Below are positions 26,234 through 53,567 of a DNA stretch of 64,000 nt, one piece after another. Within the stretch, counting starts at the first letter, position 1. Every line of letters begins with the position of its first letter. A program made the translations under genes and the position numbers. Origin of the DNA: Propionigenium maris DSM 9537 (GTDB lineage Bacteria > Fusobacteriota > Fusobacteriia > Fusobacteriales > Fusobacteriaceae); contig NZ_BSDY01000002.1 in NCBI RefSeq assembly GCF_027925155.1, positions 186,001 to 250,000 of the forward strand, read 5' to 3'. Under the pieces are notes generated by a model. That model saw only the letters and a program-made list of their open reading frames with translations. It ran no database searches and was not told the DNA's origin.

Positions 26234-26893
26234 TTATAGTCTATATAAGTGCTCAAAATGGTTTTCAGATATTTTTTTTAAAATATTCTTTCCCAAATAT
26301 ACTTTTTGACCACTATTAGTTTCCACATACTCTTCCTTATAATTAATTTCTTTTATTTTTTGGATGTTCAGTATGATCCCTCTTTCCACTCTTATAAAGT
26401 GGAAATTTTTGATAAAATTCTCTATCTCTGTAAGAGATCTTCTAAGAAAATATGACTTTCCACAAACAGTAGCAGAGGACTTTTTTAGTGTTCTATTATA
26501 TGAAAAATATTCTATATCTTCTAAAGGAGTTACTACTTCTTTAAAGCTGTCGGATAAAACGATCTTATCTCTATAGTTTAATTTGTTTTTTTCTGTAAAT
26601 TCATCTATAAAGTTATCTAAAAATACATACTCTTCCCTCATATGAAAAGATAACTTTTTTATATCTCCTTCACACTTTTTGTAGAATTTTGTGTCTATTC
26701 TATCTGAAAATATATAGATTTTTTTTATCTTTTTTAAGTTTATGCATTCAGCAGAAAATATGCTGTTATCTGTTATTAAAAAACTACCTTCCAACACCTC
26801 GTCGCTCAAATCTGATATTTGCTCAATATTCAAAGAAAGAGTTTTCTTTAAAAGATAGAAAAATAAATCATCTCCATAAAATAAGCTTTTCAT
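26234..26893 (-). CDS. LytTR-type DNA-binding regulator with a degenerate receiver
   Basis: 219 aa. The C-terminal about 95 residues form a LytTR domain (DIEYFSYNRTLKKSSATV, FLRRSLTEIENFI, FIRVERGIILNIQKIKEI, YVETNSGQKVYLGKN). The N-terminal part has the hydrophobic pattern of a receiver (SLFYGDDLFFYLLKK, GSFLITDN, IYIFSD) but lacks a clear phosphoacceptor aspartate and the usual Lys, so it is probably not controlled by ordinary phosphorylation. Its start overlaps the stop of the membrane-sensor gene by one base, implying a signalling pair. The PLP-lyase gene follows after about 130 nt. Confidence 0.82.
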   Translation of the reverse strand: MKSLFYGDDLFFYLLKKTLSLNIEQISDLSDEVLEGSFLITDNSIFSAECINLKKIKKIYIFSDRIDTKFYKKCEGDIKKLSFHMREEYVFLDNFIDEFTEKNKLNYRDKIVLSDSFKEVVTPLEDIEYFSYNRTLKKSSATVCGKSYFLRRSLTEIENFIKNFHFIRVERGIILNIQKIKEINYKEEYVETNSGQKVYLGKNILKKISENHFEHLYRL

Positions 26894-28476
26894 TATTTTT
26901 CTCCCCCTTCCTCAGTATTTATTTTTTTTCTTATCATTCTTGCTACTTCCATTTTTTTATCAAAAGCATCTGTTTTCTCCATAATATTTAGCAGTTCTCT
27001 TGTATAAAAAATATCTTTTTCTAATTTCTCTATTTTTTCAGTTAATTTCTTTTCTACATTCTTATAATGATTAATCTGAAGGTTTTTTAGAATGACATTC
27101 TCTAAAATTGGAGCAATATTTAAAATCAGCTTCTTAAAATTTCTTAATTTTTTTCTATACATGAGCAAACAGGGATCTTTAACGTACATATAACCTAAAA
27201 GATTATCTTTATTTTGAATTTTTATGCCTATATCATATTTTTTTCCTTGATATATAGGTGAAAACGTAATGAAAGGATGTTCTTCATATATCCTAGTATC
27301 ATAATCTAGATCAAAAATTTCCATTTTAAACTCAATAAATCTGAATATTCTTGTAAATTCATCCTCTAAAAACAAACAAAAATTACTTAATGTTTCTATG
27401 CCTTTTAATCTTTTTAGAAATTTATCAAAATTTACTTCCTCTTGTTCTGAAAAAAATAAAATGATAAATGAAACTACTTCAACAAATATTATAATAGCTA
27501 GAAGTCCTGTAACATATCCTGTAAGAGTATTCTTTTTCACAAAATAACTTATAGTTAGAAACATTATAAAAACTCTTATTACATTAAAATTTGTTGTTTT
27601 AAAAAATTGATTATCTTCTGATAATTTAATATCTTCTAATTTCACATGAACAAACAGAATATTAATGATGAAATGTGCCATAAATTCAAAGTTCCCGTAA
27701 AGATTTAACTTATCATATACATATATATTAAATAAAAGTTGAATAAAGAACAGGAAACAATAATAGATTGATTCTATTTTTTTAATTTTATTTCTATTAT
27801 AGAAAATTGAGGCAAAATTAAAGGTGAGTATCAAGCCTATAAAGCCATTTCTCAAATAATCAAAACATATGTGTAGTCCCCATCCTGAGAATATTAAGTT
27901 TTTATCAAAAAATATATTATAAAAATCTCTTATGGATAGTGAAAGTAGTATGGCTATACCTAATATTAAAACAAATATTACTACTTCTATTACTTTAGAT
28001 TTTTTATTAAATGAATTTTCCCAAAAATATTTTATAAAACTAATACAACCGCACAAAGCAAAGACCCAGCTAAAAATTGTAAAAAGGATCTTACAACTAT
28101 CAAAAGGTAAAATATAACTGAGAGTTTCTGAACCAACAGCCAGAGAAAAATATAATGAACCAACATATAAGCCCGCTTCTTTAAAGGTCCTGCGGAATAA
28201 TATAGTCAGAAGAATAAGAAAGGCAAGATATCCACAACCTAAAAATAAGATGATATACCTTTTATAAACAAAGCTAAGTAAAATACTTGAATTTTCAGGA
28301 GCCACATCTACCTTTAGAAGATGAACTAAATCTAAAATTCTTGCGGTATCGGCATCCCCTGGTTTCACTGATAGATCCCCCATAAACTCCAATCCTACAA
28401 GAATAGTAACTACTAATGTTACTATCAGAGTAAAATCGTAGACATTATTTTTTTTTAATATTTCCATTAACTTCAT
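26893..28476 (-). CDS. Multi-spanning membrane sensor-like protein without a kinase domain
   Basis: 527 aa. Roughly the first 350 residues contain a large extracytoplasmic loop after helix 1 (residues about 33-68) and some nine membrane helices. The cytoplasmic tail (about residues 355-527) begins with a GAF-like region (ETLSNFCLFLEDEFTRIF, FSPIYQGKKYDIGIKI, NLLGYMYVKD) and ends in a coiled coil (KNVEKKLTEKIEKLEKDIF). No HisKA or HATPase motifs are present. It is translationally coupled to the LytTR regulator and is the first gene after ULU-leader copy 1. It may sense a signal and pass it to the regulator by contact. Not recognised as a named family. Confidence 0.75.
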   Translation of the reverse strand: MKLMEILKKNNVYDFTLIVTLVVTILVGLEFMGDLSVKPGDADTARILDLVHLLKVDVAPENSSILLSFVYKRYIILFLGCGYLAFLILLTILFRRTFKEAGLYVGSLYFSLAVGSETLSYILPFDSCKILFTIFSWVFALCGCISFIKYFWENSFNKKSKVIEVVIFVLILGIAILLSLSIRDFYNIFFDKNLIFSGWGLHICFDYLRNGFIGLILTFNFASIFYNRNKIKKIESIYYCFLFFIQLLFNIYVYDKLNLYGNFEFMAHFIINILFVHVKLEDIKLSEDNQFFKTTNFNVIRVFIMFLTISYFVKKNTLTGYVTGLLAIIIFVEVVSFIILFFSEQEEVNFDKFLKRLKGIETLSNFCLFLEDEFTRIFRFIEFKMEIFDLDYDTRIYEEHPFITFSPIYQGKKYDIGIKIQNKDNLLGYMYVKDPCLLMYRKKLRNFKKLILNIAPILENVILKNLQINHYKNVEKKLTEKIEKLEKDIFYTRELLNIMEKTDAFDKKMEVARMIRKKINTEEGGEK

Positions 28477-28688: not shown

Positions 28689-29027
28689 GTACGACAAAAA
28701 GCCATATAGACTATGGATATCACGATGCCATTAGCATCCTATTTTAAATTGATTAATTAAAGAATTTAATAAAATTAGAATTTAGAATTGAAAATGAAAT
28801 TAAAATGGAATTTCTACTTAGAAGGGATAAAAGCACTTATTTATCGGGAATTCTTCTAAATCTATAATTCTAATGGGTATTTACTTCTTCCAGAAGTAAG
28901 ATTTACAGATCAAAGTCATACTCTAAAAAACATGGTGTCTCCTCTCAGTTTAAATTTTATACATTACGATTAATAAATTAACACAAACCCATAATAGACG
29001 TCAATATATTTTTAAGGTTGATTTTTA
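28689..29027 (-). promoter_or_regulatory. ULU-leader element, copy 1 (upstream of sensor/LytTR operon)
   Basis: First of three near-identical elements of about 335 nt, all upstream of reverse operons. Reading the reverse strand: TTGACG, 18 nt, TAATTT (preceded by TG) as promoter; ribosome site GAGAGGAG; the 23-codon ORF at 28862-28933 with two in-frame UGA codons; a SECIS-like hairpin; a nested stem TTAGAAG...CTTCTAA; an A/T-rich stretch; hairpin GATGC-TAATG-GCATC (28724-28738); and CCATA...TATGG followed by CTTTTTG (28695-28716), a weak terminator-like structure. It ends about 215 nt before the sensor start. Conservation with the other two copies is high across the whole element, while flanks differ. 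Confidence 0.8.
28862..28933 (-). CDS. ULU leader peptide 1 (two in-frame UGA codons, putative Sec)
   Basis: 23-codon ORF. Reading UGA as selenocysteine (U), the peptide begins MFFRVULUSVN, continues LTSGRS and ends KYPLEL before TAG. The UGA codons are at 28916-28918 and 28910-28912. GAGAGGAG lies 6 nt before the ATG. From the second UGA, a perfect 8-bp hairpin (TTACTTCT / AGAAGTAA, loop GGA) begins at nt 14 and places the loop at nt 22-24, like the SECIS hairpins of saoB and saoL in this window. With ordinary termination it would be only MFFRV. Differences between the three copies of this ORF are all synonymous. Confidence 0.7.
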
Positions 29028-32116: not shown

Positions 32117-32138
32117 AAAAAAGGGCTGCAGCCCTTTA
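32117..32138 (-). terminator. Intercistronic hairpin after the binding-protein gene
   Basis: AAAGGGCTGCAGCCCTTT is a perfect palindromic stem running into a T-run on the reverse strand and starts within the stop codon of the binding-protein gene. It should favour binding-protein expression over ATPase and permease. Confidence 0.75.
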
Positions 32139-33173
32139 ATTGTAACCTTTAATCTCAGAATCCCATTTTCGCATCCACTGAGATTGCTTTTCCGATAACA
32201 CCTTCCAGTCAACATCCATAACCTTATACTCAATCTCCTTCATCCACTGAGGCGATTCTTCAATTGCACTATTTAAAGTCGGCATACGGTTAAATTCAGT
32301 TGCAAGTTTAGACTGGATTTTTTTGCTTCCAGCAAACTCCAGGAATTTTTTTGCAGCATTTGGGTGTTTTGAGTTTTTTATCACTCCAATGGCATCTGTA
32401 ATTACAGGGGATCCGCTTTCAGCATCTATTATCTCAAGGGGCAGACCATTATCCCTATTGGCAATAACAGAGCTTAAAACAGCAAAACTTATAGAAGCTT
32501 CCTTTCTTCCAACAGCCTGAAATTGTAGCGATCCGCTTCCATAGTATTTTTTAGTGTTCCTATCTAAGGATTTCATAAACTCCCAACCATCAGATATTCT
32601 ACCTTCCTTATCATATTGGTATAGCAGGCTTGAGTATGTGGCTTTGGCAGAAGATGATCCTGCATCTCTAAATACCAGTTTATCTTCATATTCAGGCTTT
32701 ATCAGTTCATACCAGTCCTTTGGAGCTTCCTCCTCACTGAGCATCTCACTGTTATAAAACATTACCACTGGTGTTTGGATTGTACCATACCACAGACCAC
32801 CTTCATCCTTGAATAGAGGATTAAGCTCCTCCGACCACTCTGGATGTGTTTCTTCAAAAACACCCTTCTCAGCTAGGTCAATAAATAGTGATGAAGCACC
32901 ACCATACATTACATCTGCCTGGGGAGCATCCTTTTCAGCCAGCACCCTGTCCGCCAATGCCCCCTTTAAGTTTATATACTCCACCTTTATTCCTGTTTCC
33001 CTTTCAAACTCCGAAACCACAACCTCCAATAAACTTTCTGCATGGGTAGAGTAAACAACCACTTTATCTTCCACTACCTTCTCCTTTGGTTTTTCTTCAG
33101 ACTCCTTTGAACCACAAGCAGTTAAAGCTAATACCAGACCTGCAGCTAGCAATACACTTAACAGTTTTTTCAT
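32136..33173 (-). CDS. Extracellular solute-binding lipoprotein, iron (AfuA/FbpA) type
   Basis: 345 aa. Signal peptide with lipobox ALTAC then GSKESEEK. The mature domain starts KVVVYSTHAESLLEVVVSEFERETG, typical of family 1 (iron-type) binding proteins, followed by APQADVMYGGASSLFIDLAEKG and a C-terminal lobe with SPVITDAIGVIKNSKHPNAAKKFLEF. It is the first gene of the importer operon and lies 83 nt downstream of ULU-leader copy 2. Iron, thiamine and phosphonate binders share this fold, so the ligand is open. Confidence 0.9.
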   Translation of the reverse strand: MKKLLSVLLAAGLVLALTACGSKESEEKPKEKVVEDKVVVYSTHAESLLEVVVSEFERETGIKVEYINLKGALADRVLAEKDAPQADVMYGGASSLFIDLAEKGVFEETHPEWSEELNPLFKDEGGLWYGTIQTPVVMFYNSEMLSEEEAPKDWYELIKPEYEDKLVFRDAGSSSAKATYSSLLYQYDKEGRISDGWEFMKSLDRNTKKYYGSGSLQFQAVGRKEASISFAVLSSVIANRDNGLPLEIIDAESGSPVITDAIGVIKNSKHPNAAKKFLEFAGSKKIQSKLATEFNRMPTLNSAIEESPQWMKEIEYKVMDVDWKVLSEKQSQWMRKWDSEIKGYN

Positions 33174-33249
33174 CTGTATCCTCCCCTTATTTTTTTATAT
33201 TATAAAAACAATCATATAAACCTAAAATTCAAAGAATTTTTTAATCACT

Positions 33250-33588
33250 GTACGACAAAAAGCCATATATGGACTATGGATATCACGATGCCATTAGCAT
33301 CCTATTTGAAATTTAATAACTAAAGAATTTTAAAAAATTAGAATTTAGAATTGAAAATGAAATTAAAATGGAATTTCTACTTAGAAGGGATAAAAACACT
33401 TATTTATCGGGAATTCTTCTAAATCTATAATTCTAACGGGTATTTACTTCTTCCAGAAGTAAGATTTACAGATCAAAGTCATACTCTAAAAAACATGGTC
33501 TCTCCTTTCAGTTTAAATTTTATACATTACGATTAATAATTTAACATAAATCCATAATAAACGTCAATATATTTTTAAGGTTAGTTTT
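33250..33588 (-). promoter_or_regulatory. ULU-leader element, copy 2 (upstream of the iron-type ABC operon)
   Basis: Same layout as copy 1. The promoter is TTGACG, 18 nt, TAAATT; the ribosome site AAAGGAG precedes the UGA-containing ORF at 33425-33496. The SECIS-like hairpin and the nested stem TTAGAAG...CTTCTAA are retained, as are GATGC-TAATG-GCATC and CCATA...TATGG with CTTTTTG (33256-33279, loop 2 nt longer than in copy 3). It ends 76 nt before the SBP start codon. Homology with copy 3 continues a further 30 nt or so towards the gene (CAAAGAA...TTTTAATCACT). Confidence 0.8.
33425..33496 (-). CDS. ULU leader peptide 2 (two in-frame UGA codons, putative Sec)
   Basis: Same 23-codon peptide as copy 1 (MFFRVULUSVN..., ending KYPLEL). 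UGA codons are at 33479-33481 and 33473-33475. Relative to copy 1 the only codon difference is CCG for CCA (Pro). The ribosome site is AAAGGAG, 6 nt before the ATG. The 8-bp hairpin with GGA loop after the second UGA is unchanged. Whether ribosomes insert Sec or stop here is not shown by the sequence, but conservation continues past both UGAs. Confidence 0.7.
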
Positions 33589-33687: not shown

Positions 33688-34554
33688 TTACTTTTCTACA
33701 GAAAGCTCCTCTCTTCCTGCCCATTCTGCAAATCCTGCATCGTAATTCATAACTTTATAACCTGCATTTCCTATAACATAAGCTGCCATTGCTGCTCTAA
33801 CTCCTGCTGTACAATATGTCACAACTGTATCATTCTTTGTTATGCCATTTTCTGAAAGCAGTTTTTTAGTTTCTTCAGGTGATAAAAATATCCCATCCTC
33901 ATCTCTAAATTTCAAGTAATCTATGTTAATACTCCCTGGAACATGTCCATCTCTCACCTCACCATAAATAGATTTTTTACTATATTCCTTGGAAGACCTG
34001 GTATCGATCACCTTATAGCTTTTTAAGTTCTCTACAAGATTATCTGTATCTATGACAATATCCCTGTTGATGGATTCAACTGTAAAATCTCCTCTTTTAA
34101 CTTTCATCTTTTCCCTTGTGAGAGGGAGATTCTTTTCCTTCCATTGGTTTATACCTCCAGACAGGACATAAACTTCAGGAACTTTAGCAAGCTTTAAAGT
34201 CCACCAAATTCTGGTATCCTCTCCCCAACCTTTTGCATCACCATACACAACAACTGGTTTATCCTTCATAATTCCTAGATTCTGAAGTTTTTCAGTTAAA
34301 GAGTGAGCATCTAGATTTACAACACCCCAGCCCTTATCCCCATTTTTCCCAACCATGTTTGAAAGAGCTGTCCATGAAGTAAAAGTACTTCCAGGTATGT
34401 GCCCCTGTAGGTAAGATTTTTCTCCCCTTGCATCAATAACCGTATATTTATCTAAATTACTTTTCAACTCCTCGGAAGAGATTGTCTTTCCAAAAACAAC
34501 TGTAAAGTTAATCACTAGTATTAAAAAAATCAATAAAACTTTATTTTTTTGCAT
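33688..34554 (-). CDS. Exported two-domain rhodanese (thiosulfate sulfurtransferase type)
   Basis: 288 aa with an N-terminal signal sequence (LLIFLILVINFTVVFG). Domain 1 (about residues 25-140) has VVYGDAKGWGEDTRIWW in its active loop and no Cys. Domain 2 (about 155-285) has VVTYCTAGVRAAMAAYV, the active loop with catalytic Cys. This is the normal arrangement of tandem rhodaneses. It is the last gene of the group 37949-33688 and is followed by a strong terminator. It is the second exported sulfurtransferase in the region, close to ULU copy 2 but upstream of it, so not obviously controlled by it. Confidence 0.88.
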   Translation of the reverse strand: MQKNKVLLIFLILVINFTVVFGKTISSEELKSNLDKYTVIDARGEKSYLQGHIPGSTFTSWTALSNMVGKNGDKGWGVVNLDAHSLTEKLQNLGIMKDKPVVVYGDAKGWGEDTRIWWTLKLAKVPEVYVLSGGINQWKEKNLPLTREKMKVKRGDFTVESINRDIVIDTDNLVENLKSYKVIDTRSSKEYSKKSIYGEVRDGHVPGSINIDYLKFRDEDGIFLSPEETKKLLSENGITKNDTVVTYCTAGVRAAMAAYVIGNAGYKVMNYDAGFAEWAGREELSVEK

Positions 34555-38044: not shown

Positions 38045-38698
38045 TTAAATTTCAAACAACAATTTACTCACCTTAAATGCATCCTTTACCGGAAGGGAGT
38101 ATATCCCCTCTTGGATACCATTTCTCTCAATCCAGTTTTTTATTTCTTTCTTCCCCCGGAAGAAATTCATTATATTTCAGCAATCTCCAGCCCAGTTGGT
38201 ATGATTGTTTAGGTCCACATGAAGGATGTGCAGATCCTCGGGAAAATATGAAACCAAATTTCCATTGGATAACTTTAAATTGATATCTTCTCCCGTTTCA
38301 CAGCATCTGGAATTAATCTCAACATCCTGATGAAAAGTAAAGTGGGTTCCTATTGAATCTATTGCACACATGGAATAAAATTCTTTTCCGTCCCTTCTTT
38401 TTACCCTATGGGGTGTAGGCAAGGCTGAAACAGGATATATAAATTTAACATCATCATCAGCTACAAATACTCCTCTTTTCTGCATCTCTATTAAAATATC
38501 ATCTATATCTGGGTATTTATTTATTAATTTACTTTTTATATCCTTTAAAGAAGTTTTAGAAGCAATTACAGACTCCATAATAAAAAGCCTGATATTCTGA
38601 TACCTGCTCTCTAAGTCCTTATATCTCCCCTCTAAATACAGCTCCTCGCTGGTATAATCTTCAAATTCCAGCTCTAAAAATTCTTGTTTTGTATACAT
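38045..38698 (-). CDS. saoL: SaoL, MerB-like organometal lyase selenoprotein (UGA at 38177-38179 read as Sec)
   Basis: 217 aa when the UGA at 38177-38179 is read as selenocysteine; otherwise it would stop at residue 173. After Cys173-Sec174 the frame continues NIMNFFRGKKEIKNWIE and ends at TAA 38045. FYSMCAIDSIGT (Cys111, Asp114) resembles the MerB active site, and the FFRGKKEIKNWIE tail resembles the MerB sequence after its second Cys. From Cys111 to Sec174 is 63 residues, equal to Cys96 to Cys159 in MerB. This predicts cleavage of a carbon-metal bond with Sec replacing a catalytic Cys. It follows saoA with stop and start codons adjacent. The target metal is inferred, mercury or another soft metal. 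Confidence 0.88.
38147..38179 (-). promoter_or_regulatory. SECIS element of saoL
   Basis: From the UGA (38177-38179), 11 nt lead to a perfect 8-bp stem TTTCTTCC / GGAAGAAA with loop GGG (loop at nt 23-25 counted from the U of UGA). Stem position and G in the loop fit bacterial SECIS elements recognised by SelB. Confidence 0.82.
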
Positions 38699-39448
38699 CT
38701 ATACTCCTTTTAATGCTATTTCCAGCAGATTTTCAAGTTCTCTTTTATAATCTTTATACTCGTCAAATTCTCTGTTACGAGGCCTCTCCATCTCAACTTT
38801 AAAGTCTTTTATGATCTTCCCTCTGTTTTTAGACATTACTATTATCCTGTCGCTGAGGTAGAGGGCTTCCTCCACATCATGGGTGACCATTACAGTTGTA
38901 ATTTTGGTTTCCTGCCATAGTTTTTCCAGCTGTACCTGTATAGACTTTCTCATCTGAAAATCTATTGCTCCCAGTGGTTCATCCAGGAGTAAAATTTTAG
39001 GATTCCCTGCCAAGGCCCTTACAAAAGCTGTCCTCTGCTTCATTCCCCCAGATAGTTCCTTGGGATACAGGTCTTCCTTCCCTTGAAGGTGGGCAATTTT
39101 AATTAATTTTTTCAGTCGCTTTTCCATCTCATCCCTTGCTAATTTTTGTTGCTTCATGGGGTAGAGTATATTTTCCTTAACTGTCATCCATGGGAAAAGT
39201 GCATAGTTTTGAAAAACAAATCCCTTTTTTGGAGATGGCTTGGTAACTATCTCATCATCTAACCTTATCTCACCAGAGGTGGGTTTTTGAAACCCTGCCA
39301 TCATAGTCAGTAGGGTTGTTTTCCCGCACCCAGATGGTCCCAGTAAAGTTATAAATTCCCCCTTATTAAAGGAGATGTTTACATTTTGAAGTACTATATT
39401 TTCTTCACCCTTTGAAGAAAATATTTTAGATATATTTCTTATTTCCAT
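38699..39448 (-). CDS. saoA: SaoA, ABC transporter ATPase of the SAO system
   Basis: 249 aa, nitrate/sulfonate/taurine-class ATPase. Walker A GPSGCGKTTLLTM, Q-loop FVFQNYALFPWMTVKENI, signature ELSGGMKQRTAFVRAL, Walker B ILLLDEPLGAIDFQMR and H-loop MVTHDVEEALYLS. The start overlaps the true stop of saoP by one base (TAATG), which only becomes visible once the saoP UGA is read through. Together with SaoP and the two binding proteins it makes a complete importer. It contains no Sec itself. Confidence 0.9.
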   Translation of the reverse strand: MEIRNISKIFSSKGEENIVLQNVNISFNKGEFITLLGPSGCGKTTLLTMMAGFQKPTSGEIRLDDEIVTKPSPKKGFVFQNYALFPWMTVKENILYPMKQQKLARDEMEKRLKKLIKIAHLQGKEDLYPKELSGGMKQRTAFVRALAGNPKILLLDEPLGAIDFQMRKSIQVQLEKLWQETKITTVMVTHDVEEALYLSDRIIVMSKNRGKIIKDFKVEMERPRNREFDEYKDYKRELENLLEIALKGV

Positions 39449-40251
39449 TATATTTCCCTCCAGGAGGTTAGATGCTTATTTATCTGTAGAAGTCCTCTGT
39501 CTATTGTATAACCTACAACAGCAGCTAACATCATAAGAGCAATCAATCTCTCCGTCTGCATGTAAGCTTGAGCTTCTACCATTGAGTGACCGAACCCGGC
39601 ACTTGTCGCTATGAACTCCGCTCAGATAACAGACATCCACCCTGTACTGATAGAGATCCTGGCTCCAGTCAGTATATCTGGAACAACAGCTGGAAGAGTG
39701 ACATCTTTAAAGAGACTAAATCTGCTGGCACCCATACTTCTGGCTGCATTATAATAATCAGATGAAATTCCCTTTACTCCCTCTAATGTATTTAAGATAA
39801 TTGGAAATACTCCTGAAAATGCTATTAAAAATAATGTCGGTCCATCTCCAATACCAAACCAGACGATAGTCAGGGGAACCCATGCCATAACTGGGATTTG
39901 ACGTACTGCATCAATAATCCCTCCCATAGCCTTTTCAACTGCCCTGAAATATCCCATTAAAAAACCCAGGGGTAGGCCGAATAGGAGAGATAATAAAAAA
40001 CCCTTCAATACACGGCCCATTGTAATTCCCATATTTTCCAATACTTCCAAATCCACTATGCACTTAAAAAATTCTTTAATTGTAATAACTGGCGAGGGAA
40101 GCAGTAGTTCATTGTGGTAGTATATAGACATTATCTGCCATACAGTTAAGATGCCAATAAATGCTATTGATCTATTGCATATATTTTTCATCTTACCTTT
40201 TATAGGATTTTGATCCTTTGAAACCTTGGTGTAGACACATGTTTCGGCCAT
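39448..40251 (-). CDS. saoP: SaoP, ABC permease selenoprotein (UGA at 39622-39624 read as Sec)
   Basis: 267 aa after read-through. The first 209 residues carry a TauC/SsuC-type permease with about five helices and the EAA loop AARSMGASRFSLFKDVTLPA, ending GWMSVI at the UGA. The frame then continues AEFIATSAGFGHSM, exactly the conserved segment after GWxxxxAAE in this family, through two more helices to TAA at 39448-39450. A permease cut at residue 209 would lack the last helices. Sec210 faces the transport core if it follows the family topology. The start at 40251 has AAAGGAGGG upstream and overlaps saoB by 52 nt. An ATG at 40191, after the saoB stop, is an alternative. Confidence 0.9.
39585..39624 (-). 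promoter_or_regulatory. SECIS element of saoP
   Basis: Starting 21 nt after the first base of UGA: AGTG and CACT pair (39603-39600 with 39588-39585), then a single bulged T, then CCG with CGG, with loop GGTT. A bulged U and a GGU loop on a short stem closely recall the E. coli fdhF SECIS, although there the bulge is on the other side. Confidence 0.85.
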
Positions 40252-40934
40252 TTTCCCTCCTTTAAATAAATTTTAACTTCTTTTTGGTATAATTTTTCAT
40301 CATTTAATTCCTCAGCCACTTCATTATATTTTTCAATAAATTCTTTAAATTCTCTGGTTCCCATTACAGCTTTTCTCACTACCATATTATATGTAGTATA
40401 GTTCTCCCCGGCCTCTTCATAATCTCCCCTTATTGTAATTGCCTTAATGCCATCTAGTATAGCTGCATCGACTACACCTCTTTCTAGCAATACAGGAATA
40501 GAGTTAGCCTTTACAGGGTATTTTACGCTGTAATCTTTGATTAATTTTTTTTGATACTCCTTCCTTCCCTCATATGCAATGGTATCTAGATCCTTTTTAT
40601 TTTTTACAACTATATCTGAATTTTTTATTACACTTCCCAAATTTTCAAATTCCTTATTTCCTCCAAATGAGTTCACAGCATCATCGCATAAAAATGCTAT
40701 ATCCAGTACATCGCTACTCAGTGCCCACTGAGTTGTGGAACTTCAGCAATCCTGCAGTTCATACTCTCCAACTACTGTTTGAAGTTCAATATTTTTATGG
40801 AGAAGCCTGCTGACCAGAAGGCCAGTTGTATCTTTACCACTGGCGATCCTTAGTGGTTTTTCCATTCTTTTTTCCCTAGGCAGGATAAAGGCTACCATAA
40901 GCAATATGATGAGAAAGACACTAAGGTTTTTCAT
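40200..40934 (-). CDS. saoB: SaoB, ABC substrate-binding selenoprotein (UGA at 40743-40745 read as Sec)
   Basis: 244 aa after read-through, joining a 63-residue start (signal sequence LSVFLIILLMVAFILP, then LRIASGKDTTGLLVSRLLH) through Cys63-Sec64 (ELQDC-U-SSTQWALSSDVLDIAF) to a C-terminal part including VPVLLERGVVDAAILDGIKAI. The whole is a compact NMT1/SsuA-like binding protein. The Cys-Sec pair lies where ligand contacts are expected, well suited to grip a soft metal or organometal. Its start is 2 nt after the stop of the second binding-protein gene. The C-terminal half starts inside one continuous frame, so this is not a pseudogene. Confidence 0.9.
40716..40745 (-). promoter_or_regulatory. 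SECIS element of saoB
   Basis: Nine nt after the UGA (40743-40745), ACTCAGTG and CACTGAGT form a perfect stem with a GG core loop (effectively GGGC with a 7-bp stem). The loop lies at nt 20-23 from the U of UGA. It is the strongest hairpin of the four SECIS elements here. Confidence 0.87.
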
Positions 40935-40936
40935 CT

Positions 40937-41989
40937 TTATCTATCTAATTCCTGAGCTTTTGCATACCATGAATCATAGCTCATTCCCAATGGGAAAGCT
41001 TTCTCAATTTTTTCAGCTATAAACTTATCAAAATCAGGCACATTAGCTTCAGCATAGATCGATTCATCTACAATGTTTTCATACTTGACTTCCTTTGAAA
41101 TAAAGTCGTTTTCCTGTACCCACTCCAATTCATTTCTGATCTCTTGTGGATCCAGTTTCCATGTTAGGGTCCTTCCCTCTCCTACAGTTTTTTTATAGAT
41201 TGTACTTACAGCAACCTCCAATGGAACATTGTAGTTATCGGCAAAGATCTCAGCTGATTTTAAGGGGTGCTCATAGATATACTGAATTGCTTTAGCATGG
41301 GCTAATATCATTTTTTTAGCCAGCTCTCTGTGTTCTTCAATAAACTTTTTATTCAAAGTGTATGTACAGCATACTCCCCATTTACCGTTTAATAACTTAT
41401 TTTCAGTTTCCATAATCTTTCCGATGCCTTGATACTCTGCCATGGATGCCCATGGATCACATGCTGTAAACCCCTTGATCTCTCCCATTCTAAGAGCAGT
41501 CAGTGCATCTGTTGATGACCCTATATCGATTCCCTGATAATTTTCTCCCTCTACTGGCAGGTTTAGATTTTTTGCAATTTGAGTCCAGCCAGTTGATCTT
41601 TCAGGATGGGTACCGATGGCAAGCTTTTCACCGATTAAATCCTCAGGTTTCTCAACATCGTTAGCAACAACCAGATAATATGATCCTCCTTTATGGTTAT
41701 TTGCACCAATTACAAGGGGGGCACCCTTGAGCTGGGATCTGAATACATTGTTAACCCCGATATATCCCACATCCATTTGTCCTGCAGCCATTGCCTGGGG
41801 AACCTTTCCATTCCCGCTGATATCTACTGAAAGTCCCATATTCTCAAATATCCCGGCATCTTTAGCAATAACCGATGCAGTCATATGGTCACAGTTGTAG
41901 TATCCCAGTTTTACTGTATAATCCTCTGCCTTTTCTTCACCACACCCTAAAAATGCCAGTAGGGACAACCCAAGTATAAATTTTTTCAT
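40937..41989 (-). CDS. NMT1/SsuA-like substrate-binding lipoprotein of the SAO operon
   Basis: 350 aa. Lipobox FLGC followed by GEEKAEDY. The mature protein starts VKLGYYNCDHMTASVIAKDAGIFENMG, the opening of nitrate/sulfonate/taurine binding proteins, then AMAAGQMDVGYIGVNNVF and ACDPWASMAE. Cys and His in NCDHM and the Cys pair in WGVCCTYTLNKKFIEE are unusual for this family and could bind a thiophilic metal. It belongs to the importer SaoA/SaoP, probably alongside SaoB. I recall a family label SaoX for a companion binding protein but am not certain, so no symbol is given. No in-frame UGA occurs. Confidence 0.88.
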   Translation of the reverse strand: MKKFILGLSLLAFLGCGEEKAEDYTVKLGYYNCDHMTASVIAKDAGIFENMGLSVDISGNGKVPQAMAAGQMDVGYIGVNNVFRSQLKGAPLVIGANNHKGGSYYLVVANDVEKPEDLIGEKLAIGTHPERSTGWTQIAKNLNLPVEGENYQGIDIGSSTDALTALRMGEIKGFTACDPWASMAEYQGIGKIMETENKLLNGKWGVCCTYTLNKKFIEEHRELAKKMILAHAKAIQYIYEHPLKSAEIFADNYNVPLEVAVSTIYKKTVGEGRTLTWKLDPQEIRNELEWVQENDFISKEVKYENIVDESIYAEANVPDFDKFIAEKIEKAFPLGMSYDSWYAKAQELDR

Positions 41990-42017
41990 TCTTTTTCTCC
42001 TTTATTGATTAATTTAT

Positions 42018-42452
42018 TTAACAACATTCATCCATCCCCTCTCCAAAGAGGTCTATGATCCTGTTATCTTCTATTCTGTATATTGCATACCCCAACTTGC
42101 TTCCCTTATAACCTGAAACTATAAACTCCATTTGAGCTTTTTCATCGATATTTTTTAACTTAATACTCTGTCTTTCAACAGGGGCTTTCACACTGCTGGT
42201 CAATCTCTCTGAGCCTCCCAGAACGACAACCATTCTTTTTTCAGACTTGGAGACTTCATAGATAATTATCAGATCACCAATTCCGTCATCTGTAATATCT
42301 CCCTCCTTGGTGAGAATAACCCTATTTGAGTATTCATCTTGAAATATTTTTAATAGTGGATTTTTTTGGTCTATATCTTCCTGGAAGATTTCCTGTGAAG
42401 AATAGGTATAGAAGATAAACCCGATAAAAAAGATAAAAATAACTTTTCTCAT
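42018..42452 (-). CDS. saoC: SaoC, exported protein ending in Cys-Cys
   Basis: 144 aa with an N-terminal hydrophobic segment (VIFIFFIGFIFYTYS), a beta-rich domain (ILTKEGDITDDGIGDLIIIYEV, MVVVLGGS) and the extreme C-terminus DECC. The two terminal codons are TGT TGT before TAA. As I recall, SaoC is defined as a protein ending in Cys-Cys or Cys-Sec, so this is the all-cysteine form. A C-terminal vicinal Cys pair resembles the metal-handling tail of MerA. Its start overlaps the saoE stop by 4 bases (ATGA). The DGIGD segment recalls calcium-binding FG-GAP-like loops. Confidence 0.85.
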   Translation of the reverse strand: MRKVIFIFFIGFIFYTYSSQEIFQEDIDQKNPLLKIFQDEYSNRVILTKEGDITDDGIGDLIIIYEVSKSEKRMVVVLGGSERLTSSVKAPVERQSIKLKNIDEKAQMEFIVSGYKGSKLGYAIYRIEDNRIIDLFGEGMDECC

Positions 42453-43510
42453 GCCATCACTCTCCTCCTTACCACAGGTAAAACAGATTTTACTGCAAGT
42501 AAGATAATCATCATGGAGGATATATATTTAATATATTCCGGTGGCTGAATAAGCAGGGCATTGGCAGCTTCAATAGAACCTAAGTTCTTATTAAAGTCAA
42601 TGACTGGTTTAAAATCCACCAATAAAATATTTGTTAGATATCCTACTCCCAGAGATGATATAACCATTGTTGTGGAGTAGATGACAACCGTTCTCTTTCC
42701 CATAAGTTTATACATACTGAGTAATTCTGGCAGATTCGTTGCAGTACCTGCCATTAAAAATGTTACGGCTACACCGGGAGCAGCTCCACTGGCAACAAGA
42801 GCAGCAATAAAGGGAATATGCCCCACTGCACATACATACATTATAGCCGCCAGGATAGTTATACTTCCCAGGGAGAGTACGCTAGGATCCCCCAGATATC
42901 TTTCAATATAACCCTTTGGAAAAACAGTGAATAAAAATCCAGCCATAAGGATACCTAAAACCACATATTTACTTACAACAAGTGCCAGATCATTAAATGC
43001 CCAGTTAAACCCATCTATTATTTTTTCCTTAAAACTTCTGTCATCATCGTAATCAGACTGGATAAACTCATCCATACCAGGAGCATGAAGCTCATCCCCT
43101 CCAAATTTATTTCCGATTACTCCGATTAAAAATGGCAGACAGAAACCAGTCAAAACATAGATACTGGCTATCTCAGGTCCAAGGAGTCCAAAAGCAAGCA
43201 AAACTGCCACAGGATTAATCATAGGAGCTGATGTCATAAAGGCCAAAACAGGACCCAGGTAGGCTCCTGAAAAGTACATGCTCATGCCAAGAGGTATAAC
43301 TCCGCAACTGCATATGGGAAGGAGCATTCCAGATAGTGTGCTTTTAAAGACTGAAGATAGTTTCGTATTCCCAAGCATCCTCTGAAACTTTAAGGGATTC
43401 AGTATATTTCTTAAGAATCCAGCCAGTAAAAAACTAAATACCAGCCATATAGAGGCTGAATTTAAAATCTCAAATGAACTCTTCAATATTTCTTCTAAAA
43501 ACTTTATCAT
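42449..43510 (-). CDS. saoE: SaoE, ArsP-like organometal permease
   Basis: About 353 aa, DUF318/ArsP-type membrane permease with some ten helices. The hallmark PICSCGVIPLG lies in the first half, followed by FMTSAPMINPVAVLLAFGLLG. In the second half VCAVGHIPFIAALVASGAAPGVAVTFLMAGTATN splits the repeat. ArsP proteins export organoarsenicals using cysteines in the CSCG motif, so SaoE is probably the efflux arm of this system. The frame opens at 43525, but only the ATG at 43508-43510 has a ribosome site (GAGG), so I prefer that start. It follows saoT by 1 nt. Confidence 0.87.
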   Translation of the reverse strand: MIKFLEEILKSSFEILNSASIWLVFSFLLAGFLRNILNPLKFQRMLGNTKLSSVFKSTLSGMLLPICSCGVIPLGMSMYFSGAYLGPVLAFMTSAPMINPVAVLLAFGLLGPEIASIYVLTGFCLPFLIGVIGNKFGGDELHAPGMDEFIQSDYDDDRSFKEKIIDGFNWAFNDLALVVSKYVVLGILMAGFLFTVFPKGYIERYLGDPSVLSLGSITILAAIMYVCAVGHIPFIAALVASGAAPGVAVTFLMAGTATNLPELLSMYKLMGKRTVVIYSTTMVISSLGVGYLTNILLVDFKPVIDFNKNLGSIEAANALLIQPPEYIKYISSMMIILLAVKSVLPVVRRRVMA

Positions 43511-43511
43511 C

Positions 43512-43751
43512 TTAAACCGCCTCATCGATTGCTTTTTTTATTATCTCTTCGGAAAGGGTCTGGTATTTTTTTGTTTCGTTAATAATAAGAGTGGATTTCA
43601 TCACTGCTCCATATTTTTTTAAGTAGCCAAAATCCTTTCCTGCTTTATAGATCTTTGCTGTTAATCCCTTTTTTCTAGCATAATCTTCCACGAAGACTTC
43701 AAATTTAGTGCATCATGGACATGCATTGATAAACTCTATTTTTTCTTTCAT
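43512..43751 (-). CDS. saoT: SaoT, small thioredoxin-like selenoprotein with CPUC motif (UGA at 43713-43715)
   Basis: 79 aa when UGA is read as Sec. The N-terminus is MKEKIEFINACPUCTKFEVF, a beta strand followed by a CxxC-like motif with Sec at residue 13 between Cys11-Pro12 and Cys14. The remainder (GLTAKIYKAGKDFGYLKKYG, MKSTLIINETKKYQTLSEE) fits a compact thioredoxin-like domain with a missing cis-Pro region or short version. Without read-through only 12 residues would be made, so conventional ORF calling misses the gene. It lies 36 nt after the double-cubane protein gene. A redox or metal-transfer role is inferred. Confidence 0.88.
43680..43715 (-). promoter_or_regulatory. SECIS element of saoT
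   Basis: TCTTC and GAAGA (43696-43692 with 43688-43684) form a 5-bp stem with loop GTG. The loop lies at nt 25-27 from the U of UGA. It is the smallest of the four but has the required loop position and G. Confidence 0.7.
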
Positions 43752-43787: not shown

Positions 43788-44936
43788 TTATAGTAACTCT
43801 AAAAATGCCTCTATTCTCGTCTTTATCTGTCCAAGGTCGGATGGAGAGTATCCAGTTTCAATACTCATATAGCTCTTCTTTCCCTCCTTGGTCACCACAT
43901 TCTTCATCTGATGGGTCTCTACATTGTATGTATGACATGCCTGAAGAATTACATCTATCACTCCGTCAGCCCTATACTCCTCTACCATCTTTTTCAGCAG
44001 CTCTCCCCTACCATTATTTGGAGTCATTACAGAGCAGGGAATGTTGAGATACTTTTTGGCAATAGCATCTACAGGGTCTGTTGATTCATCGATAAGTTCC
44101 TCTAGATTCTTTGCACCACTGCAGTTTTCATTGGCCACAACTACAGCTCCGGCATCCTCTATGGTCTTTATGATCTTGTCGGCAACTCCTCCTATGGGAC
44201 ATCCTGTAATAATAATTCTTGGAGCATCTACAGATACTTGTGACTCTCCATCTTCGTGCTTTCTCTTCAGATCATCGATTATAGTTCTTAACCTTGCATT
44301 CTGCTGTGCCTTATCAAAGGTATAGTTGGCACCATTTAATACCTGAAACATCTCATAGCCGGTTACAGGGGGCGGGGTTAGCTTTCCAAGACCATAAAAC
44401 TCCTTTAGAAGAATCCTTTCCTCGTTGGTTAACTTTATTGCTTCCTTTAAATTGTCCTCGGTAACCTTTACACCAAACTTCTTTTCTAGCTTTTCAATGA
44501 AAAACTCCACCTCACTCCTCCATACCTTCATAGCATGATCCTTATCTTGAGTTTGAGGGAGCTGCATTACATGGGTATCCTTTATCTCCCCCAGTAACTC
44601 ATACATCTTCTTCTTACCATCACAAGTGGTCTCTCCCACCACCATATCGGAAAAATACATATATGGACACTTATCTGTAAGGGCATAACCATAGCTGGCC
44701 TTGATTAAAGGACACAGATTTTTTGGCAGGTGCTTCTCTGCATCTGGTATAGTCTCCTCGCTTGTAGCACAAAGGGATACAGGATAGGCTCCCGCCGCAT
44801 AGATAACCTCCTTTGGAGTATATGCACAAAACATTCCCACTATATTTTTTCCGTCATCCTTTAGATTTTTTACAGTTAAGAAGCCATTTCTTCTGGCATC
44901 TTCGAATTCTTCAAATTTCTCTGGTAAATCATTCAT
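43788..44936 (-). CDS. Double-cubane-cluster-type protein of the 2-hydroxyacyl-CoA dehydratase family
   Basis: 382 aa, HgdB/YjiM-like. Cysteines sit at the expected places: [62 protein letters not shown], then [14 protein letters not shown] and [18 protein letters not shown]. Stand-alone members carry a double-cubane [8Fe9S] cluster and perform low-potential reductions, normally driven by a separate ATPase activator, which is not encoded in this window. It is the first gene of the SAO operon, 36 nt before saoT and about 200 nt after ULU copy 3. It could supply strong reducing power for a Se- or metal-linked step; this is inference. Confidence 0.87.
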
Positions 44937-45139
44937 CTTTCTTCCCCCGTATAGTCAGTTATTTTTTATCTTTTTTGTCCACTTAGCAGCACAAGTTCAA
45001 ATAATCTTAGATTTTTTAATAACAAAATTTTTGCTGTTGCTAAACCTGGATTTATTCCTGCATAAAGTATCCTTCTTAATTTTTGCACAACAAAAATAGC
45101 CCTGCAGATCTTAAAATTTCAAAGAAAATTTTAATCACT

Positions 45140-45477
45140 GTACGACAAAAAGCCATATGGACTATGGATATCACGATGCCATTAGCATCCTATTTTAAGT
45201 TGGTTAATTAAAGAATTTAAAAAAATTAGAATTTAGAATTGAAAATGAAATTAAAATGGAATTTCTACTTAGAAGGGATAAAAACACTTATTTATCGGTA
45301 ATTCTTCTAATCTATAATTCTAATGGGTATTTACTTCTTCCAGAAGTAAGGTTCACAGATCAAAGTCATACTCTAAAAAACATGGTATCTCCTTTCAGTT
45401 TAAATTTTATACATTACGATTAATAAATTAACATAAATCCATAATAAACGTCAATATATTTTTAAAGTTAATTTTTA
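45140..45477 (-). promoter_or_regulatory. ULU-leader element, copy 3 (upstream of the SAO operon)
   Basis: Third copy, same order of parts. The promoter is TTGACG (45449-45454), 18 nt, TAATTT (45425-45430) with TG just upstream; ribosome site AAAGGAG; UGA-containing ORF 45312-45383; SECIS-like hairpin; stem TTAGAAG...CTTCTAA; GATGC-TAATG-GCATC; and CCATA...TATGG with CTTTTTG (45146-45167). It ends about 200 nt before the first gene of the selenoprotein-rich SAO operon, which makes a selenium-linked control role attractive. Confidence 0.82.
45312..45383 (-). CDS. ULU leader peptide 3 (two in-frame UGA codons, putative Sec)
   Basis: Same peptide as copies 1 and 2 (MFFRVULUSVN..., ending KYPLEL). 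UGA codons are at 45366-45368 and 45360-45362. Against copy 1 it differs at GTG for GTA (Val10) and AAC for AAT (Asn11), both synonymous. The hairpin TTACTTCT-GGA-AGAAGTAA after the second UGA is unchanged. Synonymous drift downstream of the UGAs is what selection on a translated Sec-containing product would leave. Confidence 0.7.
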
Positions 45478-51333: not shown

Positions 51334-53064
51334 TTATGCAGCTGCCTGTGGTGAAACTCTTTCTTCACCTTCAACGGGCTTACCAATAAACCTGACCATA
51401 GCAACAACAGATATTATAGACAGGGGTAAAACTACAGTTGCAGGAAGACCCATCCCTACTGGCAGATATCCGAATACTACAGATAATCCTGCCACAGACA
51501 AAGCATACACCAGCTGAGTTCTCACGTGGGACAGGTGATCACATCCTGCTCCCATAGATGACATGATAGTGGTGTCTGAAATAGGTGAGCAGTGGTCTCC
51601 AAATATCGCTCCAGTAAGTACAGCCCCGATACATGCAACAGTATAGGTATGAAGAGCCTCAGGAGCAACACCTGCATTCAACCCCACAGCATTGGCCAGT
51701 GGAATTGCCAGAGGCATTAAGATACCCATAGTTCCATAGGATGTACCAGTGGCAAAGGCTATAAATGAAGCCAGGATAAATATTATAGATGGCATAACAG
51801 CCTTTGGTATTCTAGATGACAGCATGGAGATCAGATATGTAGATGTTCCTAACTCCTTTATTACCGAGCTCAGAGACCAAGCCATTAGGAGAATAACACA
51901 AGTTATTATAAGGGGCTTCATACCGTGGATCCAGGTCTCTATAGCTTCCCCCACTGAAAGGATCCTCTGGGAAACTCCCATAAAGAGAGCCACTATGGAT
52001 GCAAATACTGCTGCCTGGAATAGCACAACAGAGGCATCTGAAGCTCCAAAGGTTTCCCTTATGGCAAAGGCAGAGAGAGGGCTCTCATTGACCCTTGCTA
52101 GTACCTCTCCATCCAGTGAAGATAAGCCGTTGTAGTAGAAACCGATAAATGAAAATAAGATCAGGATCCCAATAGGGATCAGGGCATTTCTCATCCTAGG
52201 AGTAACCCCCTCCTTAGGCATTGTAGATGTGGCTTCCCCCTCTAGATCCTCTGAATTAACAGGTGATGCTACCCCATTTAAACGGGCATTCCTTTCAGCT
52301 TTAAGCATAGGCCCAAAATCTCTAGACATATAGGAAGATATAGCTACAAAGGCCAGCATAAGGATGTTGTAGAATCTGTATGGAATAGTCTCAACAAAGA
52401 TCCCATAGGCATTGATATTCTCCATTCCAATGATAGCATAACCATCCTTGATAACGGAGATCTCATAACCAATCCATGTGGAGATAAGAGCAAGGCCTGC
52501 AATAGGTGCTGCTGTTGCATCTATGATAAAAGCCAGTCTCTCTCTGGATATTCTCATCTTATCTGAGATAGGTCTCATTATAGGACCGACGATCAGTGCG
52601 TTGGCATAATCATCAAAGAAGATAAAGAGACCCAGGATCCAGGTAATAATCTGTGCTGAGACAGGTGAATTTGCCCTTTTAGCCAGGGATTCAGCTACAG
52701 CTCTTGCCCCGCCCATCTTTGAGATAAGAGCAATAAGACCACCAATTGCAAGAACCTGTAAGATTATCCCGGCGTTCCAGGAATCAGCCATGGAATTAAT
52801 TATTCTGGTAATGATATCTGTGAATCCTCCCACAAGACCACCAAAGAATCCGCCTCCTTCCATTCCAAGTAAAAATGTTCCAGAGTACACTCCGATAAAG
52901 AGCGAAAGTATTACATTTTTAGTTACAAAGGCCAAGATAATCGCTATTGCCGGCGGCAGGAGTGTCAGGAGACCAAAGTACTCAGCGTTGGTAGCCACAT
53001 CTCCCGCAAAACTAAAAACAGATAAACTAATAAACATCGATAATACTAAACCTAAACTTCTCAT
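51334..53064 (-). CDS. lysW: NhaC-superfamily lysine transporter under lysine riboswitch control
   Basis: 576 aa, about twelve helices. The N-terminus has a signal-like helix. Core motifs are FIFFDDYANALIVGPIMRPISDK, DATAAPIAGLALISTWIGYE, FATGTSYGTMGILMPLAIPLAN and GAIFGDHCSPISDTTIMSSMGAGCDHLSHV, all typical of NhaC-superfamily amino-acid carriers. Two lysine riboswitches precede it on the same transcript, so lysine is the probable substrate and excess lysine shuts the gene off. Rodionov and colleagues used the name LysW for NhaC-type lysine transporters behind LYS elements, as I recall. Uptake rather than export fits repression by lysine. Confidence 0.88.
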   Translation of the reverse strand: MRSLGLVLSMFISLSVFSFAGDVATNAEYFGLLTLLPPAIAIILAFVTKNVILSLFIGVYSGTFLLGMEGGGFFGGLVGGFTDIITRIINSMADSWNAGIILQVLAIGGLIALISKMGGARAVAESLAKRANSPVSAQIITWILGLFIFFDDYANALIVGPIMRPISDKMRISRERLAFIIDATAAPIAGLALISTWIGYEISVIKDGYAIIGMENINAYGIFVETIPYRFYNILMLAFVAISSYMSRDFGPMLKAERNARLNGVASPVNSEDLEGEATSTMPKEGVTPRMRNALIPIGILILFSFIGFYYNGLSSLDGEVLARVNESPLSAFAIRETFGASDASVVLFQAAVFASIVALFMGVSQRILSVGEAIETWIHGMKPLIITCVILLMAWSLSSVIKELGTSTYLISMLSSRIPKAVMPSIIFILASFIAFATGTSYGTMGILMPLAIPLANAVGLNAGVAPEALHTYTVACIGAVLTGAIFGDHCSPISDTTIMSSMGAGCDHLSHVRTQLVYALSVAGLSVVFGYLPVGMGLPATVVLPLSIISVVAMVRFIGKPVEGEERVSPQAAA

Positions 53065-53097: not shown

Positions 53098-53148
53098 AAA
53101 TAAAATGACTACCAAAATGGAAATCTGGTAGTCAAAGTAAAACCAGAT
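53098..53148 (-). promoter_or_regulatory. Terminator/antiterminator switch of the second lysine riboswitch
   Basis: Terminator stem GACTACCA / TGGTAGTC (53107-53133) with a T-rich but interrupted tail. The alternative stem ATCTGGT / ACCAGAT (53123-53148) shares both the terminator's 5' side and the 3' strand of aptamer helix P1. Ligand-stabilised P1 therefore frees the terminator: a repression switch. Confidence 0.75.
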
Positions 53149-53304
53149 AGCTCCCCATCATTCGATGACAGTGTTATAGCTGTTAACTAATAACCCCAGA
53201 AAAAGACCTTGTGGAGATCCTCTCTTCGGCAAATCATCCTTTCCCTCTCTTCACAGCCTTCCACTAGCTCCAGGAGTTACTCATAATCATCGCGACCTCT
53301 ATCC
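53145..53304 (-). promoter_or_regulatory. Lysine riboswitch aptamer 2 (gene-proximal)
   Basis: On the reverse strand: GGATAGAGGTCGCGATG, AGTAACTCCTGGAG, GGAAGGCTGTGAAG, GATTTGCCGAAGAG, TTTCTGGGGTTA, ACACTGTCATCGAATGATGGGGAGCTATC. This is the ordered consensus of the LYS element (AGAGGtGCG, AGTAA, GCCGAAG, CTGG, ACTGTCA). GATAG and CTATC close helix P1. Confidence 0.9.
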
Positions 53305-53324
53305 ATCTATTTAGTTTTGGCAAT

Positions 53325-53354
53325 AAAAAAGACTGTTTAGAATACTAAACAGTC
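53325..53354 (-). terminator. Terminator of the first lysine riboswitch
   Basis: GACTGTTTAG and CTAAACAGTC form a perfect 10-bp stem with a 4-nt loop and T6 on the reverse strand, between the two aptamers. Each aptamer thus has its own terminator. Confidence 0.88.
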
Positions 53355-53379
53355 AAATAATCATAAGTAATAATCAACT

Positions 53380-53539
53380 GATAGTACTCCACACCACGTG
53401 TGACAGTTGTATAGATATTATCTATACCCCCAGAATGCCTCCTTTAGCCTGGATCATCCTTCGGCAACCTCACCTTTTATCCATCTTCACAGCCTGCTAA
53501 GCTCCAAGGGATTACTCTTTGATAGTTGCGACCTCTATC
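53380..53539 (-). promoter_or_regulatory. Lysine riboswitch aptamer 1 (promoter-proximal)
   Basis: On the reverse strand: GATAGAGGTCGCAACTATC, AGAGTAATCCCTTGGAG, GCAGGCTGTGAAG, GGTTGCCGAAGGATG, TTCTGGGGG, CAACTGTCACACG and closing CTATC. It has the same consensus order as aptamer 2 but differs in stem sequences and variable loops, so the tandem is not a recent exact duplication. Confidence 0.88.
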
Positions 53540-53567
53540 TTCAACAAGTCATTTTATTTGTAATGAG

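Follow-up and report, generated by a model that had tools for sequence, protein, structure and literature searches.

Selenium sensing in bacteria, and the adjustment of selenium uptake that follows from it, is still largely an open question. A locus near 45 kb of the window (the whole 64,000-nucleotide stretch of DNA analysed here) raises a narrower one: whether a short ORF with two in-frame UGA codons is translated with selenocysteine (Sec) and what it would then do for the genes behind it. As judged from the sequence and its relatives, the element is quite probably a cis-acting, Sec-dependent leader peptide that senses selenium supply. If translated, a leader with two such UGAs would report directly on the level of charged tRNA-Sec.

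Anatomy of the Leader Element

The components of the leader at 45 kb (w45) are as follows.

45425–45454, minus strand: promoter, TTGACG (45454–45449), 18 nt, TAATTT (45430–45425) (sequence; kept among paralogous leaders)
45312–45383, minus strand: leader ORF of 23 codons, MFFRVULUSVNLTSGRSKYPLEL (sequence; third-position substitutions among paralogues)
45331–45349, minus strand: SECIS-type hairpin of 8 bp, TTACTTCT-GGA-AGAAGTAA (covariation; geometry as in SelD and SaoB)
45277–45296, minus strand: hairpin 2, GATAAA-UAAGUGUU-UUUAUC (sequence and alignment)
45196–45275, minus strand: G-poor, U-rich stretch with C>G between hairpin 2 and hairpin P3 (composition)
45175–45189, minus strand: hairpin P3, GATGC-TAATG-GCATC (sequence)
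45147–45167, minus strand: weak terminator-like hairpin, CCATA..TATGG with CTTTTT after it (sequence)

The promoter, ribosome site and ORF with two in-frame UGAs running for 23 codons to TAG, as given in the preliminary description, are all present on the minus strand. The ribosome site AAAGGAG lies upstream of the ATG at 45383, and the ORF starts ATG-TTT-TTT-AGA-GTA-TGA-CTT-TGA, with UGA as codons 6 (UGA1, 45368–45366) and 8 (UGA2, 45362–45360) and the stop codon TAG at 45314–45312. Although the TTGACG–TAATTT pair is absent from the output of a simple consensus promoter scan, the -35/-10 stretch is conserved among homologous leaders; in leaders of the genus g12 the promoter region is conserved as TTGACA...TAAGAT. 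The 8-bp hairpin with a GGA loop was confirmed at 45349–45331, starting at nt 14 from the first base of UGA2 (~10 nt past UGA2), with the loop beginning after 18 nt.

Further downstream, hairpin 2 has an 8-nt loop, URAGUGYU, in nine of nine leaders of the same genome (G000) and of a second genome (G014), while its stem varies; hairpins with this loop are located at 45277–45296 and 33389–33408 of the window, with copies on contigs C10, C19, C25, C32 and C47 and in G014. A by-eye search of the leader for a kissing partner of this loop found no conserved complement. A further helix (P2) can form between AAUUCUAAU in the C>G stretch and AUUAGAAUU, where the leader ORF ends. A second short ORF starting from the YAAUG loop of P3 was considered and rejected, as its ATG is not kept in g12, and a CsrA-type GGA hairpin was rejected because leader loops are also GGU and GGG.

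The SECIS-type Hairpin and the Sec Machinery

Bacterial SECIS elements are hairpins with G in the first loop positions, the loop lying ~16–37 nt after the UGA. In an alignment of nine leaders, six of the eight hairpin pairs show compensatory changes, the observed covariation score is reached in none of 500 shuffles, and sliding the pairing partner abolishes the signal. In this alignment the loop always begins with GG (GGA, GGG or GGU) and lies 18–20 nt past UGA2; in one class of leaders (type B) it is UGGAU. In loop and distance the leader hairpin resembles the SECIS elements of two selenoprotein genes in the same genome, those of SelD (in-frame UGA in CSVGGU; stem TGGGGCC-GGA-GGCTCTA 17 nt after the UGA) and SaoB (ACTCAGT-GGGC-ACTGAGT, 16 nt after the UGA). 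The geometry had been likened to SECIS hairpins of saoB and saoL; the likeness holds for saoB (GGGC, 16 nt), whereas the saoL ORF as read has no internal UGA and so needs no SECIS; a terminal UGA follows the C-terminal Cys of SaoL.

G000 encodes a selD-selA-selB-yedF cluster and two tRNA-Sec genes, both over the gathering score (C7:75537–75626 and C7:46259–46348; L193, L194). SelB scores over its cut-off in seven of seven leader-bearing genomes compared with 52 of 98 Fusobacteriota overall, a difference whose weight is limited by relatedness. The selD-selA-selB-yedF cluster (L158, G000:C7:1–9000) adjoins a gene for a C_GCAxxG_C_C protein; no Sec-x-Sec leader was seen near the cluster in this stretch. 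At the sequence level, the leader thus looks like a bacterial selenoprotein gene.

Coding Capacity Past the UGA Codons

In the group closest to the window's leader (w45, two further window leaders w33 and w28, C32 and C10), differences at codon positions 1, 2 and 3 number 16, 16 and 46, and half of the 62 codon differences (31) are synonymous, compared with four in each of the other frames. Frameshifts and stops past the UGAs had been named as a check on the coding reading. None was found, and the coding reading stands: the 54 nt past UGA2 are free of stops in all 13 leaders of type A plus C19 and C25 (0/13; other frames, 11/13 and 13/13), and stops past UGA2 are likewise absent from the window's group plus C47 (0/6; other frames, 5/6 and 6/6) and from type B (0/11; other frames, 11/11 and 11/11). 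Type A leaders lack a third-position excess (346/309/278), suggesting that constraint there is probably mostly at the RNA level. Leader ORFs have ~20–35 codons, of which 3–9 precede UGA1; annotation can miss Sec-coding ORFs as short as these.

Cys variants, a second check, were found in none of the 98 Fusobacteriota genomes as far as searched, the models and patterns themselves carrying UGA; this absence is what a UGA sensor itself predicts.

As UGA is a stop codon and the ORF up to UGA1 has only 3–9 codons, the leader might instead sense release factor 2 or general UGA readthrough, in the manner of prfB autoregulation, with translation ending at UGA1 and Sec playing no part. This is very improbable, given that the hairpin has compensatory changes with the loop and distance of the genome's own true SECIS elements, that the frame is conserved past both UGAs, that the downstream genes are selenium-related and that leaders occur only in SelB-bearing genomes. 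Covariation, the open frame and SelB in the host genomes all support the description of a leader ORF that codes for Sec, is equipped with a SECIS-type hairpin and stands before selenium/sulfur genes.

A Dispersed Family of Leaders

At least 32 leaders were found. Eight are in G000 (a 60-contig draft with 7.64% estimated contamination), three of these within the window; the other 24 come from six further Fusobacteriaceae genomes. Leader-bearing genomes thus number seven of 98 Fusobacteriota, and UGA-NNN-UGA is present in 32 of 32 leaders. The other two leaders in the window are:

33425–33496, minus strand: second leader ORF (w33), with its SECIS-type hairpin at 33444–33462 and hairpin 2 at 33389–33408 (DNA search)
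28862–28933, minus strand: third leader ORF (w28) (DNA search)

A DNA search of G000 yielded these two copies (33224–33588 and 28689–29027), one on C32 (79% identical) and a partial one on C10; a match on C5 was discarded as chance. The anatomy is kept in the C32 and C10 leader peptides (MHYRVULUSINLTSGRSKHPLEL and MLRFUVUCEKITSGRSKYPREL). A covariance model built from the five leaders found those on C47 and C19 and one in G014; its matches in G055 and G093 resemble coding DNA and were rejected. A pattern search added the C25 leader, the eighth in G000. With a second covariance model, built on nine leaders, eleven leaders of type A were detected in genus g12, and types B and C came to light from there; a model of type B, together with a pattern search, raised type B to eleven leaders. 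In this second genus, model matches reach E = 2.6e-6 to 5.4e-4 per genome, whereas in 38 unrelated genomes the same model gave nothing better than E = 0.25. Low-scoring R2 and R3 matches that lack Sec-x-Sec were rejected.

Outside Fusobacteriota, the scan used a pattern requiring UGA. In the GTDB genome collection, the exact pattern (UGA-NNN-UGA and RAURAGUGUUUUU) matched in 90 stretches; among those examined, only the G014 contig combines UGAs in frame with a ribosome site and a GG-loop hairpin, and the others look like chance. A peptide search in 61 genomes gave convincing matches from G000 only. Rfam 15 has no family at the gathering score for the w45 leader, with only unrelated, chance-level matches at E<=5, and two leader peptides with Cys in place of Sec had no match in Pfam or NCBIfam.

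Recurrence, covariation, the open frame and the model matches in a second genus indicate that the w45-type leader is more than chance. Orthologous leaders of related species are not independent of one another.

The three cassettes of the window (45114–45476, 33224–33588 and 28689–29027) are 94–95% identical over ~340 bp and stand before unrelated genes within 17 kb, which would represent the recent spread of a regulatory cassette. The same near-identity is what a dispersed, MITE-like repeat devoid of regulatory function would display. Such a repeat is extremely improbable and already runs counter to the tests of covariation and reading frame: diverged copies keep UGA-NNN-UGA, the open frame and the covarying hairpin at low overall identity, and placement before genes is strictly on the same strand.

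In the C47 leader (L121, about 1000–1180), the ribosome site lies inside a GAGGTTC..GAACTC hairpin that competes with a GTGAACT..AGTTCAC pairing, and there is a possible second ORF of 34 codons.

Genes Behind the Leaders

The genes behind the three leaders of the window are:

43788–44936, minus strand: double-cubane-cluster anaerobic reductase, first gene behind w45 (NF040772, 535.8 bits, cut-off 350)
38177–43525, minus strand: SAO operon, saoE, saoC, saoX, saoB, saoP, saoA, saoL (NCBIfam matches and translation)
32136–33173, minus strand: ABC substrate-binding protein gene behind w33 (family match)
26893–28476: gene behind w28 with no family match, then a LytTR-domain protein (neighbourhood)

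SaoB and SaoP have internal UGAs (40745–40743 and 39624–39622, respectively); the SaoP score, obtained on the part before its UGA only, is just below the NCBIfam cut-off. The placement of w45 before the SAO operon stands in so far as the reductase gene comes first and the SAO operon follows, but the leader is not specific to SAO, belonging to a dispersed 32-copy family.

Elsewhere in G000, the C32 leader precedes a double-cubane activase, a reductase and a rhodanese, the C19 leader a putative selenate ABC transporter (TIGR04553, 324 bits, cut-off 250), and the C25 leader a C_GCAxxG_C_C (seleno)protein and a SLAC1-type transporter; the same pair in swapped order is found in G014, and hence in two genera. 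Multi-rhodanese proteins are behind the C10 and C47 leaders and two leaders of G036. In g12, the genes include a TIGR01977 desulfurase related to the Sec lyase SclA but under the SclA cut-off, a VTT-domain protein with rhodanese, and an ABC transporter of sugar type that is similar to a transporter of the C32 operon. Further g12 leaders precede a Dpp/Nik-type ABC transporter, a PHP protein, a symporter and corrinoid methyltransferases; the PHP protein, Dpp-type ABC transporter and corrinoid methyltransferases are not known selenium genes and count against the selenium-sensor reading. The genes behind the leaders are thus mostly selenium/sulfur or transport genes.

The double-cubane reductase and its activase are both found behind a leader (L123; window 43788–44936), and the reductase would be linked by the leader to selenium or the SAO system. 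Rhodanese (lipo)proteins, several of them multi-domain, occur near or behind leaders (window 22244–23554 and 33688–34554; L121, L123, L124, L180, L181, L195) and are candidates for selenium/sulfur handling. As operons for SAO, the double-cubane reductase, rhodaneses and SLAC1-type transporters carry it, the leader might serve as a marker for unknown selenium genes. The window also contains two tandem lysine riboswitches (53140–53545, minus strand) upstream of a gene at 51334–53064.

The position of the leaders bears on whether the peptide itself is the functional product, namely a mini-selenoprotein of 20–30 residues whose Sec-x-Sec might bind metal or selenium. It would be produced from a small transcription unit separate from the downstream gene, which would have its own promoter. 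A conserved promoter before the leader, a terminator-like hairpin after it and peptide motifs shared within types A and B (e.g., SGGSYEIYCKWI and KLLDEVxMELLESEK) would suit such a product. Much of this peptide conservation, however, overlaps the SECIS hairpin or P2, and the lack of any Cys homologue found is unusual for a selenoprotein family. The leader and the next gene are on the same strand in all 29 cases seen, and a genome has up to eight copies, each before a different operon, among which selenium and sulfur functions recur. Only ~45 nt separate leader ORF and gene in G014, leaving little room for a promoter of the gene's own, which argues for one transcript. A mini-selenoprotein is improbable on these grounds, and a cis-acting leader is preferred.

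Proposed Mechanism and Polarity

In the preferred cis-acting sensor, when selenium is sufficient, SelB and Sec-tRNA-Sec would decode both UGAs, apparently served by one hairpin, and translation would run through to the stop codon; under selenium shortage, release factor 2 would terminate it at UGA1. Depending on where the ribosome stands, the last part of the ORF would or would not form P2 with the downstream strand, and the state of P2 would in turn decide whether transcription is affected by the C>G, U-rich stretch and the terminator. For G014, with its gene right behind the leader, control might be exerted at translation instead.

Several features bear on this scheme. In type A, P2 is formed by AUGGAUAG with CUAUUCAU and by GAUCUA with UAGAUC; its covariation is weak to modest. 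In a folding model, a ribosome footprint on the stop codon causes P2 to be largely lost in most leaders, and a footprint on UGA1 allows it to form. All 19 leaders measured have a G-poor, U-rich stretch with C>G between leader and genes. The terminator-like hairpin and its U-tract vary more: they are clear in C10, C19 and a number of g12 leaders, but weak in w45 and the PHP set and absent in G014. In equilibrium folding, terminator pairing does not change consistently upon loss of P2. Equilibrium folding as the whole switch was therefore rejected, and Rho, folding kinetics or a factor binding hairpin 2, whose URAGUGYU loop occurs only in G000 and G014, would have to complete it. An attenuation readout appears plausible.

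Within the sensor reading, by analogy it is somewhat favoured that low selenium turns the genes on: Trp scarcity switches genes on via trpL. The same sensor might work with the opposite polarity or a translational readout, UGA readthrough in the presence of selenium opening the downstream gene, such that selenoprotein operons are made only then. The SAO operon, which encodes selenoproteins (SaoB and SaoP having in-frame UGAs), fits this polarity, as does the G014 leader, whose ORF ends just before the ribosome site of the gene, as in translational coupling. Genes for uptake and mobilisation (the selenate transporter, the desulfurase related to Sec lyase and the rhodaneses) are, however, expected to be needed under scarcity, and the opposite arrangement is rather unlikely. 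Under the preferred reading, the decoding of two Sec codons served by one SECIS in a leader would probably govern how strongly an entire regulon for selenium/sulfur acquisition is expressed, the leader having spread through Fusobacteriaceae as a movable cassette.

Comparison with Known Systems

That no system of this kind has been described, as initially stated, agrees with the openly licensed literature searched, in which no Sec-codon leader, selenium riboswitch or selenium-sensing leader was found. Like bacterial selenoprotein genes, for which SECIS elements have been reviewed (PMC13188914; PMC12013277), the leaders have a UGA followed by a GG hairpin loop at 16–20 nt and Sec machinery in the genome. 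They differ in that an ORF of ~20–35 codons serves as a leader, two UGAs apparently depend on one hairpin and no Cys relatives were found.

Ribosome-mediated transcription attenuation (trpL, hisL and Cys-codon leaders; examples in PMC1262725 and PMC11857589) likewise combines a short ORF containing repeated codons for one amino acid with alternative leader-RNA pairings, a terminator-like hairpin and related genes downstream. Here, in contrast, the sensed residue would be Sec, for which UGA is recoded with the help of a SECIS that lies within the leader itself, and a ribosome that fails to decode UGA would terminate there instead of stalling.

Short ORFs also control other leaders, Rho-dependent ones included, such as tnaC and mgtCBR (for mgtCBR, PMC3641672). 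In these, as here, the leader ORF is followed by a long, unstructured C>G region, whereas the signal proposed here is selenium.

Functionally, the closest known case is E. coli selAB with its SECIS-like control. Thanbichler and Bock (2002, EMBO J 21:6925; cited in PMC8124441) reportedly described a SelB/SECIS-like element in the 5' region of selAB that exerts selenium-dependent control. In both systems a SECIS-type hairpin close to the 5' end would make control of the mRNA dependent on selenium, as proposed here from sequence. In selAB no UGA-containing leader peptide is translated, whereas in the leaders described here the hairpin would serve a Sec-coding ORF.
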